Origin: Agreia sp. Leaf283
Lineage (GTDB): Bacteria; Actinomycetota; Actinomycetes; Actinomycetales; Microbacteriaceae
DNA length: 64,000 nt
NCBI RefSeq assembly: GCF_001422485.1
Contig: NZ_LMNF01000001.1
Span: forward strand, 1,215,050 to 1,279,049
Direction: 5' to 3'
Made by a program: the position numbers and the translations under genes. Shown here in pieces: positions 29,119 to 51,261 of this stretch (position 1 is the stretch's first letter; each line of letters opens with the position of its first letter). The notes under the pieces are model-generated. The model was given only the letters and a program-made list of their open reading frames with translations. It had not been told where the DNA came from and did no database searches.

Positions 29119-29138
29119 CCCTTCGACAGGCTCAGGGA
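29119..29138. repeat. Single CCCTTCGACAGGCTCAGGGA element
   Basis: This 20-bp element lies between two aldo/keto reductase genes. It is the reverse complement of the CCCTGAGCCTGTCGAAGG unit that forms arrays at 47.8 kb and is related to the elements at 49.7-49.85 kb. Such elements are scattered in intergenic regions of many actinobacteria. Confidence 0.8.
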
Positions 29139-47692: not shown

Positions 47693-47799
47693 GAGAGATT
47701 TCCTTTCGATGGATCGGAAAAACACTGTGTGCACCACCATAGAACCGCACCCGTGGCCGTGTCGCGCTTTCGGGCGCGATGGGTGACGAAGGGGCCGTG

Positions 47800-47903
47800 C
47801 CCTGAGCCTGTCGAAGGGGCCGCTCCCTGATCCCGCCGAAGGGGCCGCCGTTCCCTGAGCCTGTCGAAGGGGCCGCCGTTCCCTGAGCCTGTCGAAGGGC
47901 CGC
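47800..47903. repeat. Array of four CCCTGAGCCTGTCGAAGGGGCCG units
   Basis: Units start at 47800, 47825 (degenerate), 47853 and 47881, and the last three are 28 bp apart. They lie upstream of the DUF222/HNH gene, between two divergent genes. The unit is the same element as the single copy at 29119 and related to the elements on the other side of the DUF222 gene. Confidence 0.88.
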
Positions 47904-48030
47904 CCGAGCTCGCCGCGCTCCTCTCCTCCACAGCCCCCGTTCCGGCCAAGTTATCCACACCCATATCCCCTGATCAAGCATCGAATGCCACCGTCGACCC
48001 AATGTCGGTGGCTACTGTTTGACTTCTCGT

Positions 48031-49668
48031 ATGGACCTCCTCGACGCATCCCTCGGCGATATCGCCGAGCGCCTTCGTGAGCTCCTCGACGAGAACCGCG
48101 CAGCCGTGAACACCGGTGCCGGGTCGGGTGCCGATTCCGGTGACGCGCTGCTCGAGGCAGCCCACGCCTGGGAGGCGATCGGTCGTGCCGGCGATGCAGC
48201 CCGAACCTGGGTCGCTGCCGAAGTCGCGCACGACTCCCGCCGCGAACTCGACACCGCCGGTCTCGCCTACCGTCACGGGTTCGCGTCAGCGAAGAAGCTC
48301 CTTGCCGCGACCACGAACATCTCGGAGCGCACCGCGGCGACCCGCATCAGTCTTGGCCAGCGGCTGCGGTCATCGATCTCGATCTCGGGAACCCCGAATC
48401 CGAGTTTCTTCCCGGTCGTGGAGGCGGCGTTCTTCGCAGGTCAGGTCGGTGTGGATACGGCGGCGGTGATCTGCCGCACCCTGTCCGAGGTGGTGAACCG
48501 TACCGGCTGGTCGGATGCCACCGACCGGGCCGAACGACACCTGGTCGCCGCCGCGATCGCCACCGTCGCAGATGCCGCCATCGATGCCGACGCCGATTCC
48601 GACGCGGATACGGGCGTCGAAGAGAGCGACGGCACAGACGGCGCGGACGCGTTCTGGAGGGTACCGAGGCGGTACACGGTCGAGGAGATCGGCCGGCTCG
48701 CGATCCGGATCCGGGAACACCTCGACCCCGACGGAGCCGAACCCCGCGACGCCGCAAAACAGTCGCTTCGTGGGTTCAGCTACCCGAAAGTCGGCGCAGA
48801 CGGTATGGCCCGAGGCAGATACGCACTCCCACCGCTGCAACTGGGCGTGTTCCTGGCCGCGGTCGACTCCGTCCTCAGCCCGCGCACGCCCGACACATCG
48901 AATCCTTCACCTCACACGGCAAGCCAGGACGCGACCGATCTCGGTCACACAGGTGCAGGCATCACCGAAAATCAGGGCATCGCCGGAGGCGAGGAAAACG
49001 GCCCGCTGACGAACGACCCGTCGCAACAGACGTCAGGAGCGAAGAGCGGCACCCCAGACGACCACACCATTGTCGACTCGCGCACGGCGGAGCAGAAGCT
49101 TCTCGACGCGGTCATGACCCTCCTCGAGCTGGCCGCTACCTCACCGTCCGTGTCGCTGCTGAACGGTGCGGCACCGACCGTGAACGTGCACGTCACCCTC
49201 GACGACCTCGAATCCGGGCGCGGTGCCGCGTGGATCGACGGCAGCACCGAACCGATCCCCATCAGCACCATCGACCAGCTTCGCTGCCATGGCGACACCA
49301 TCACCACCCTCTTCGGCCAGCACGGCGAGATCCTGCATCACGGCAAGACGAAACGTCTGGCCACCCGAAGGCAACGCAGAGCACTCGCCGCCCGCGACGG
49401 AGGATGCGTCATCCCCGGCTGCACCGCGCCACCGTCACGGTGTCAGGCGCACCACGTGACCCCGTGGGTGAGCGAGGACTATCCGCCCGGACGGACAGAC
49501 ATCGACAACCTCGCGTTGTTGTGTCCGTTCCACCACTCCACCATCCACACCTCGGCATGGCAACTCGTCATGATCCACGGCAAGCCGCATGTCAGACCAC
49601 CGAGCTGGCAAGATCCGAATCGAACACCCCGGCCCGCCGCGCACCAACGAACAGGCAGGCCATGGTGA
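48031..49668 (+). CDS. DUF222 / HNH endonuclease-motif protein (13E12 repeat family)
   Basis: The protein has 545 residues from ATG 48031. The N-terminal and middle parts are the DUF222 domain common in actinobacterial 13E12 proteins. The C-terminus has an HNH nuclease motif with zinc cysteines: GGCVIPGCTAPPSRCQAHHV, then the NLALLCPFHHSTIH ending (about residues 456-510). A variable low-complexity linker rich in Asp/Ser/Thr separates them. These genes are multi-copy in Microbacteriaceae and mycobacteria, and their function is not settled; mobile nuclease behaviour has been suggested. The gene is enclosed by short repeats on both sides. Confidence 0.9.
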   Translation: MDLLDASLGDIAERLRELLDENRAAVNTGAGSGADSGDALLEAAHAWEAIGRAGDAARTWVAAEVAHDSRRELDTAGLAYRHGFASAKKLLAATTNISERTAATRISLGQRLRSSISISGTPNPSFFPVVEAAFFAGQVGVDTAAVICRTLSEVVNRTGWSDATDRAERHLVAAAIATVADAAIDADADSDADTGVEESDGTDGADAFWRVPRRYTVEEIGRLAIRIREHLDPDGAEPRDAAKQSLRGFSYPKVGADGMARGRYALPPLQLGVFLAAVDSVLSPRTPDTSNPSPHTASQDATDLGHTGAGITENQGIAGGEENGPLTNDPSQQTSGAKSGTPDDHTIVDSRTAEQKLLDAVMTLLELAATSPSVSLLNGAAPTVNVHVTLDDLESGRGAAWIDGSTEPIPISTIDQLRCHGDTITTLFGQHGEILHHGKTKRLATRRQRRALAARDGGCVIPGCTAPPSRCQAHHVTPWVSEDYPPGRTDIDNLALLCPFHHSTIHTSAWQLVMIHGKPHVRPPSWQDPNRTPRPAAHQRTGRPW

Positions 49669-49683
49669 CCCCGGTAACCCTGT

Positions 49684-49853
49684 TCGGCGAGCTTGTCGAG
49701 ACTCTATGCCCTTCGATACCCCGTTCGTCGAGCCCGTCGAGAAGGGAGTCAGTTCGACACCTCGTGCGTCGGGCTTGTCGAGACGCGAGTCAGTCCGACA
49801 CACAGTTCGTCGAGCCTGTCGAGACGCTGTTCGACAGGCTCAGGAAACGAGCT
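49684..49853. repeat. Cluster of GAGCCTGTCGAGA-type elements with terminal hairpin
   Basis: At least four related elements (cores GAGCTTGTCGAGAC, GAGCCCGTCGAGAA, GGGCTTGTCGAGAC, GAGCCTGTCGAGAC) fill the gap after the DUF222/HNH gene. The last one forms a perfect 11-bp hairpin GAGCCTGTCGA / TCGACAGGCTC (49812-49841), followed by AGGAAACG. They resemble the array upstream of the same gene, with GAGACG in place of GAAGGG. The hairpin may end transcription from both convergent genes. Confidence 0.82.
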
Positions 49854-49854
49854 G

Positions 49855-51261
49855 CTACTGAGCCTCGAAGTAGAACTTCGTTCCGTCGAGGCTCGATACG
49901 ACCCACAGGCCCTGCTCGACCCCGGTGGTCGGGATCGCGACCGCGATGTTGCCCGATGCGGATGCGCCGGGAGCGAGCTCCGTGACCGCATCGATGCCGC
50001 CGGGTGCGATGGCAATGGCGTCGTACTGGTTGTACATGGTGCCATCGGCCGCCTCGAAGCCCACCTGCACGTAGGCGGGGTAGCCGGTCTCCGATCCGAC
50101 GTACGTCGTGGTGATGGGCAGCAGTGCGAAAGACGTTCCTGCAGGAGCCGTGTCGCTGAAGGAGTTCTCGGCGGCGACTGCGGCATCGGCGTTCAGAGTG
50201 GGGGCATTGACCGTGACCTGCCAGGTCGGCTCGCCCAACTGCGAGAGCTCGACGCTCGAACCGAGAGGAGCCGGGTTCTCGCGCGATCCGACGTCGCCCG
50301 CCACGGGGGCGCCCTGCTCGCCGGTGGACGTGTCGTCGCCTGGTTCGACGGGCTCCGAGGTGACGGAAGGGGAGTTGCTCTGGATGGCCTCATCGACGCT
50401 GTCGAAGAAGAGGCCGGTGTAGGCGATCGACAGAACAATCGAGAGGATCAGCGCGAGCAACGACACGGCGCTTCCCACGATGGCGAGCGTCTTCTTGCGT
50501 CCCTTGAGGAAGATCGCAATCACTCCGAGAACAAGGCCGACGAACGCGAAGAACCCGGTGATGTAGTTGATGAACGGAATGAACGACCCGAGGAGCGCGA
50601 CACTGCCGATGATCACCGCCGTGAGAGCGAGGCCGCCCGGACCCTTCTTCGGGCTGATCGTTCCCGGAGCATACGGCGCGGCCGGGTACTGGGCCGACGC
50701 ATTTTGTCCGGACGGGTACTGCCCGGACGAGTACTGGCTCGTCGGGGGATAGCTCTGCGGCTCAGGGGGCGGCGTTCCATAGTCGCTGACCGGAGGAGTG
50801 CTGCCGTATGAGAAAGGGTTTGACTGAGTGCTGCCGTAGGACGGCGGTGCGGGTGGAGCGCTCGGGGCACTGCTGTAGGAGGGCGGTGCAGGCGGCGAGG
50901 GCGATGCAGACGGCGAGGGCGGTGCAGGTGGTGCGGGCGGTGCAGGAGGCGTCGGCGCACTCGGCGGAACGGGAGGTGACGGCGGTGGAGGAGTAGACGA
51001 GAACTGCGGTTCAGACGCACCTGCCGGTGCCGACGGCGGGATCGGGGCGGACGGCTCGGGCGAGTGTGGAGGGGCAGAGGAGAACTGCGGGGTCGTCGGA
51101 ACGGGCGGCGTGCTCGAAGCCTCTGTCGAGGCAACAGCCTCTGTTGGTGCAACAGCCTCTGTTGGTGCAACAAGCTCTGTTGACGTAACAGCCTCGGGCG
51201 ACGCGGGAGTCTTCGGATCGTCAGGTACACCGGGGAACGCAGGAGGCTGTGAGTCTGGCAT
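49855..51261 (-). CDS. Proline-rich membrane protein with DUF4190/DUF4352-like parts
   Basis: The protein has 468 residues from ATG 51261. The first 210 are low complexity, Pro/Ser/Ala-rich with Tyr, including the repeat VAPTEAVAPTEAVASTEA (visible as DNA repeats near 51120-51190). Two to three spans follow (GLALTAVIIGSVALLGSFIP, then FVGLVLGVIAIFL and SLLALILSIVLSIAYTGL). The extracytoplasmic C-terminus (about 330-468) is a DUF4352-like immunoglobulin-type domain. Function unknown; such proteins are common at the actinobacterial cell surface. Confidence 0.8.
   Translation of the reverse strand: MPDSQPPAFPGVPDDPKTPASPEAVTSTELVAPTEAVAPTEAVASTEASSTPPVPTTPQFSSAPPHSPEPSAPIPPSAPAGASEPQFSSTPPPPSPPVPPSAPTPPAPPAPPAPPSPSASPSPPAPPSYSSAPSAPPAPPSYGSTQSNPFSYGSTPPVSDYGTPPPEPQSYPPTSQYSSGQYPSGQNASAQYPAAPYAPGTISPKKGPGGLALTAVIIGSVALLGSFIPFINYITGFFAFVGLVLGVIAIFLKGRKKTLAIVGSAVSLLALILSIVLSIAYTGLFFDSVDEAIQSNSPSVTSEPVEPGDDTSTGEQGAPVAGDVGSRENPAPLGSSVELSQLGEPTWQVTVNAPTLNADAAVAAENSFSDTAPAGTSFALLPITTTYVGSETGYPAYVQVGFEAADGTMYNQYDAIAIAPGGIDAVTELAPGASASGNIAVAIPTTGVEQGLWVVSSLDGTKFYFEAQ

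Follow-up and report, generated by a model that had tools for sequence, protein, structure and literature searches.

A hairpin-bounded DUF222/HNH nuclease gene in Agreia as a candidate enzyme for the spread of palindromic repeats in Microbacteriaceae

The stretch of the Agreia sp. Leaf283 genome considered here, called the window below, comprises 64,000 nucleotides (1215050-1279049 of contig 1, in a genome of 3.98 Mb) and contains a DUF222/HNH nuclease gene that lies between clusters of short hairpin repeats. The gene and its repeats form a discrete, multi-copy unit of mobile type, in which one or more hairpins are followed by a conserved leader, by the DUF222/HNH gene that is the sole gene inside the unit, and by one or more further hairpins, often with an inverted terminal copy. 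A preliminary description of this DNA had suggested that gene and repeats behave as one unit, and that suggestion is upheld by the density of the repeats around such genes, by the recurrence of the arrangement in other genera with other hairpins, and by the way in which similarity between copies stops at the hairpins.

Limits of the unit

The boundaries are visible when paralogues are compared. Between the window copy (L031) and a dispersed paralogue in the same genome (L038), similarity runs from -189 to +182 of the ORF limits, that is, from just outside the outermost 5' R1 hairpin to just outside the inverted R1 hairpin at the 3' end (Table 1). Across the whole paralogue set of the window's genome, 60% of the 5' ends fall at a hairpin (7% at random); few of the 3' ends do so, because the subfamilies differ behind the gene. 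In genome G141, paralogue alignments stop no more than 5 bp from the edge of a hairpin in 69% of cases on the 5' side and 83% on the 3' side (median 2 bp; random 3%), and the sequence outside these units is unrelated between paralogues. In both genomes the pairwise comparisons have members in common and are not independent. The G141 units carry ACGGTCSCTGAGCYTGTCGAAGSGAC at both ends in inverted orientation, and so have terminal inverted repeats of the kind that characterizes insertion sequences. No target-site duplication was seen by eye in their flanks.

Structure of the unit and its repeats

The preliminary description had counted four related units ahead of the gene, which is right for three exact copies of CCCTGAGCCTGTCGAAGGG (R1), while the fourth is a degraded copy, CCCTGATCCCGCCGAAGGG; all four are on the + strand. 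Behind the gene it had seen at least four related units and a perfect hairpin, and these are accounted for by four R3 units (49685-49702, 49726-49743, 49767-49784 and 49808-49825, at a spacing of 41 bp), the last of which pairs perfectly over 11 bp with an inverted partner at 49831-49841, and by the inverted R1, which is 95% complementary to 47849-47868. The one further element that it had noticed, near 29119, proved to be an exact dispersed copy. When up to one mismatch is allowed, the window contains 18 copies of the 11-nt core where 2.96 would be expected. We infer that the tandem multiplication of the terminal hairpins was a later step in the window's lineage.

Table 1. Features of the hairpin-bounded unit and its repeats (positions in the window)
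Feature	Positions	Strand	Basis or remark
Whole unit, approximate ends	47785-49850	+	similarity to dispersed paralogue L038 in the same genome
R1 copy 1, 5' hairpin repeat, CCCT-GAG-CCTGT-CGA-AGGG	47800-47818	+	exact CCCTGAGCCTGTCGAAGGG
R1 copy 2, 5'	47825-47843	+	degenerate, CCCTGATCCCGCCGAAGGG
R1 copy 3, 5'	47853-47871	+	exact CCCTGAGCCTGTCGAAGGG
R1 copy 4, 5'	47881-47899	+	exact CCCTGAGCCTGTCGAAGGG; about 22-24 nt ahead of the conserved leader
Conserved leader	47924-48011	+	TCCTCCACA 47924-47932; DnaA-box-like TTATCCACA 47951-47959; CCTGATCA; TGTCGGTGG 48003-48011
DUF222/HNH nuclease gene, 545 aa	48031-49668	+	Pfam DUF222 E=3.7e-31, HNH E=1e-4; alignments; model
R3 tandem array, four hairpin repeats, CGTC-GAG-CYTGT-CGA-GAC type (CGTCGAGCCTGTCGAGAC type)	49685-49825	+	3' of the gene
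3' terminal R1, inverted; pairs with the 5' R1 copies as terminal inverted repeat	49830-49849	-	complementarity
Lone dispersed R1 hairpin, same repeat family, outside the unit	29120-29136	-	sole other exact copy in the window

As we read their sequences, R1, R3 and a further type, R2 (GTCGAGTAG...TATCGAGAC), appear to follow a common plan, with a complementary outer stem, GAG, a loop or inner stem, CGA, and the other side of the outer stem. Of 181 cores sampled in the window's genome, 148 have outer 4-mers that pair completely, and the stem occurs as CCCT/AGGG (128), CGTC/GACG (9), CGCT/AGCG (7) and CGTT/AACG (2). R2 has an inner stem whose sequence changes while its pairing is kept (a mean of 2.7 bp, against 0.6 when shuffled). 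These compensatory changes indicate that folding is of importance. Covariation is the basis of the structural claim because the thermodynamic folding of single R1 and R3 copies is weak, and no better than that of shuffles. Comparison with Rfam yielded only sub-threshold chance matches, and identity with an Rfam RNA was rejected on that ground.

The 5' end of the unit has a fixed anatomy. The leader consists of TCCTCCACA, about 20 nt, TTATCCACA or a similar sequence, CTGATCA or similar, TGTCGGTGG and the start codon, and it is present, with variation, in Agreia, Leifsonia, Salinibacterium and Agromyces. The short distance between the last R1 and TCCTCCACA is kept, with unrelated sequence between the two, across subfamilies whose proteins are 22-26% identical, and Agromyces loci have R2 in place of R1 at the same position before the leader. 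In a survey of 118 DUF222 genes from 12 genomes, the nearest upstream hairpin was in + orientation in all 40 of 40 cases, which came from nine genomes. The first downstream repeats were inverted in 20 cases and direct in 20; inversion is typical of G141 and G038, and the window unit also ends in an inverted R1. A plain artefact of gene duplication was rejected, since subfamilies A and B (25% identical) share both the leader and the repeat position, and other hairpins are used in other genera.

Several smaller features of the leader deserve mention. Its DnaA-box-like site is perfect in the window, and TTRTCCACA is found in 11 of 18 DUF222 leaders, while 800 kb of control DNA from the same genome contain it just two times; control coupled to replication is a possibility. 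A 7-bp inverted repeat (GCCACCG...CGGTGGC, 47987-48012) lies just ahead of the start codon, and TGTCGGTGG is kept before DUF222 genes across many genera.

Dispersal of the repeats in the genome

Exact copies of CCTGAGCYTGTCGAAGG (R1) number 371 in the genome and those of the reversed control 0, so that R1 is a genome-wide repeat family; for GAGCCTGTCGA the counts are 351 and 6. Within 350 bp upstream of the 18 DUF222 genes, R1 reaches 4.8/kb, whereas control stretches totalling 800 kb have 0.07/kb; the repeats are 60-70 times denser there than in control DNA. Gene by gene, R1 occurs within 350 bp upstream of 11 of the 18 DUF222 genes and 9 of 350 control genes (Fisher p=1e-11), where the control genes were called crudely as long ORFs with biased third positions. 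R2, counted as half-sites, shows the same tendency, at 2.4/kb near DUF222 genes and 0.011/kb elsewhere. The co-location of repeats and DUF222/HNH genes, which had been put forward earlier as a check, thus holds as a concentration at these genes, but not as a confinement to them. Chance clustering was rejected in view of the core excess in the window together with the density and the gene-by-gene enrichment at DUF222 genes.

Away from DUF222 loci, R1 often takes the form of inward-facing pairs with short unrelated spacers, which is the form of REPINs, and these paired hairpins resemble non-autonomous derivatives. Paired inverted hairpins were found in 14 of 18 genomes tested and in neither G061 nor G124, both of which are without DUF222. 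Like the repeats of REPtrons, R1 is a high-copy and mainly extragenic palindrome, with 53 of 69 sampled elements outside crudely called genes. In the control stretches (L046-L085), 25 of the 48 intergenic R1 copies lie in convergent gaps, which make up 18% of the intergenic length; this preference would fit either a secondary role in termination or tolerance of the repeats there.

Units in related genera

The arrangement is frequent around DUF222 genes and not universal. All 12 DUF222 genes examined in G141 have an upstream (+) hairpin of the ACGGTCCCTGAGCCTGTCGAAGGGACG type, and most have an inverted hairpin of the ACGGTCGCTGAGCTTGTCGAAGCGACG type 28-36 nt past the stop codon; the exact core does not recur in the outer flanks of these loci, which span 10 kb. 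The DUF222 genes of G136 have another hairpin family, R4, on their flanks, at 3.2/kb near them against 0.09/kb far away. A de novo test asked whether different DUF222 loci have inverted repeats in common between their 5' and 3' flanks, and it was positive in six of 12 genomes (G000, G141, G084, G038, G060 and G136, with four loci each for G084 and G038). It did not exceed the control in the other six (G123, G139, G041, G082, G072 and G037), and it is because of these that the association cannot be called universal.

DUF222 is present in 92 of 150 Microbacteriaceae genomes sampled, many of which have ten or more matches. It accompanies R2 in 34 of 37 R2-positive genomes and occurs in 58 of 113 R2-negative ones (p=4e-6), a comparison that is confounded by phylogeny and has exceptions. 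Genome G148 has 14 R2 copies and no DUF222 match; G061 and G124 have the GAGCYTGTCGA core in excess, with no DUF222 and no inverted pairs. The repeats in these three genomes are possibly relics or other repeat families. A search for the RAYT/Y1 transposase (PF01797) gave no match in the window's genome and a match in one of the 150 family genomes, and a RAYT elsewhere in the genome was accordingly rejected as the source of the repeats.

Variation at the locus among Agreia strains

A comparison of strains, which had been put forward earlier as a way to detect presence or absence of the gene, reveals that the locus is polymorphic. In Agreia sp. PsM10 the gene occurs together with the repeats; an orthologue at the same site but free of hairpins is present in A. 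pratensis and A. bicolorata; and Agreia sp. Leaf210 has an empty allele, from which exactly 47767-49854 is absent. In a tree of the neighbouring hydrolase, Leaf210 groups with A. pratensis, nested among carriers (support 93/91), which argues that its empty site is more likely a loss. Together with the hairpin-free orthologues, this tree means that the hairpins at this locus were either gained in, or lost outside, the lineage of the window and PsM10. Polymorphism of the locus and enrichment of the repeats at DUF222 genes are the opposite of what the preliminary description had named as contrary to its view, namely repeats equally common far from such genes and no insertion polymorphism. The right-hand neighbour gene of Leaf210 (L100) is about 490 bp shorter inside, against window 49897-50389.

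The encoded protein

The window gene is, by its sequence, a member of the DUF222/HNH (13E12 repeat) family: the protein scores 109 bits for DUF222 (curated Pfam cut-off 24.4) and 22.8 bits for HNH (cut-off 21.4), and its HNH residues are intact and conserved in alignments. AlphaFold2 models were obtained for the whole protein (mean pLDDT 73.9) and for the N-terminal part (81.4), and in both models residues ~50-234 are closest to ParB/Noc DNA-binding domains. In the structure comparison, ParB/Noc/Spo0J domains take all of the first ten rows with the whole model (Z 7.6-9.0) and all of the first eight with the N-domain model (Z 7.5-8.2). The best superposition of the whole model has Z 9.0 and rmsd 2.4 over 103 residues, and that of the N-domain model has Z 8.2 and rmsd 2.4 over 105 residues. 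Both Z values are moderate for helical folds and of a size that chance can produce in a helical protein. Foldseek found no significant match for the DUF222/HNH models in the PDB, and searching the PDB with a sequence profile of the DUF222 domain was uninformative. The HNH part is, in its predicted structure, like McrA, TagI, IscB and Cap5. The models thus suggest a ParB/Noc-like helix-turn-helix DNA-binding domain joined to an HNH nuclease. ParB/Noc proteins bind short inverted-repeat sites.

Assignment to a known defence system was rejected, PADLOC giving no convincing match, as was an origin as plasmid or phage cargo, for which matches were distant only. Some DUF222 copies in the window's genome are rearranged or broken (L038, L039 and L044), and include a 677-codon form, an in-frame stop with an N nearby, and a frameshifted copy.

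Models for the spread of the unit

We infer that the DUF222/HNH protein mobilizes the hairpins and acts in their recognition, cleavage and copying. The model that we think probable is that it binds and nicks or cuts the hairpin ends, with the unit copied to new sites and short hairpin pairs spread in trans. The predicted ParB/Noc-like part would recognize the palindromic ends, the HNH domain would nick or cut there, and the unit would thereby be copied; short hairpin pairs would spread in trans as proposed for RAYTs (PMC2817692), by means of an unrelated catalytic domain. A bolder version, which is possible and which we hold tentatively, would make DUF222/HNH a new class of transposase that recognizes hairpin ends, moves its own gene and makes REPIN-like populations in actinobacteria free of RAYTs. 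Mobilization by DUF222/HNH has to contend with the half of the surveyed genomes that lack a shared flank repeat, with the hairpin-free orthologues in Agreia and the lack of a visible target-site duplication, with R2 in G148 and the core excess in G061 and G124, all without DUF222, and with the placing of dispersed R1 in convergent gaps, as for terminators.

The main rival, which we regard as rather unlikely, treats the hairpins as host REP-like elements moved by another enzyme or by recombination, and the DUF222 gene as copied through recombination or gene conversion between flanking repeats, which would set the apparent boundaries. The REP13E12 (DUF222) loci of M. tuberculosis are indeed gene-conversion hotspots (PMC13061034), direct-repeat arrays flank the window gene, repeats also occur far from DUF222, and the same locus is known with and without them. 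However, recombination would not be expected to yield a constant orientation and a near-constant distance to the leader, it normally needs longer homology than the single short hairpins on which the boundaries fall at unrelated sites, and it does not predict different hairpins at the same place in different genomes. In another model the hairpins are bidirectional terminators, which selection would have kept near a nuclease gene that is potentially harmful and, in other places, between convergent genes. This would account for the enrichment in convergent gaps and for the long hairpins that inverted pairs can form, but leaves unexplained the uniform 5' orientation and leader spacing, the arrays of up to 13 copies and the ending of paralogue similarity at hairpins; single repeats also fold weakly, and we judge this explanation improbable. 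The preliminary description had given homing as an example, in which the nuclease would cut a dispersed repeat and the gene would be copied into the cut repeat. HNH is a common domain of homing nucleases, there are repeats on both sides of the gene, and an empty allele exists; yet that allele is not itself a repeat and is nested among carriers, in two Agreia species the orthologue occupies the same site although repeats are absent, and the units end in complete hairpins and do not split one. Homing into pre-existing repeats is therefore very improbable, and no evidence was found for homing of the DUF222/HNH unit into a cognate site.

Relation to known elements and implications

The closest functional parallel to a unit mobilized by DUF222/HNH is the REPtron, in which a RAYT gene has flanking REPs, and of which REPINs and BIMEs are non-autonomous derivatives (PMC2817692; PMC3116915). 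As in REPtrons, a single gene is flanked by short imperfect-palindrome repeats, often inverted, and the repeats have more than 100 genomic copies, occur as singles, inverted pairs and tandem arrays, and differ between lineages. Unlike in REPtrons, the gene is DUF222/HNH and there is no Y1/HUH (IS200/IS605-like) transposase, the 3' repeats are not always inverted, and no GTAG-tagged palindrome has been established. The unit would work like a REPtron and yet is none, because the defining Y1 transposase is absent.

The REP13E12/13E12 (DUF222/HNH) elements of Mycobacterium belong to the same protein family and are likewise multi-copy, repeat-like and recombination-prone (PMC10589994, PMC13061034), but the hairpin termini and dispersed hairpins described here have not been linked to REP13E12 in the papers found. 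CGTC-type REPs (PMC3733652) are also dispersed palindromes, without a known dedicated transposase; they differ in sequence and taxa, whereas the present repeats have been linked to a candidate enzyme. Free-standing HNH homing endonucleases and nucleases of the McrA/TagI/IscB type share the HNH catalytic domain, but not the DUF222 N-domain with its predicted ParB-like fold or the hairpin-bounded unit. No paper connecting the DUF222 family with hairpin repeats was found in the open-access library that was searched.

Many families of bacterial palindromic repeats have no known mobilizer. For Microbacteriaceae, a family of bacteria from soil and plants, the little-studied DUF222/HNH nuclease is a candidate for the enzyme, so far missing, by which hairpin repeats are spread, because the gene is copied as a hairpin-ended unit and the same hairpins are scattered genome-wide. 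DUF222/HNH genes are numerous, multi-copy and unexplained in actinobacteria, and also include the REP13E12 repeats of M. tuberculosis. Linking them to the hairpins would give both a testable function, and would place an HNH enzyme in the role that a RAYT has elsewhere.
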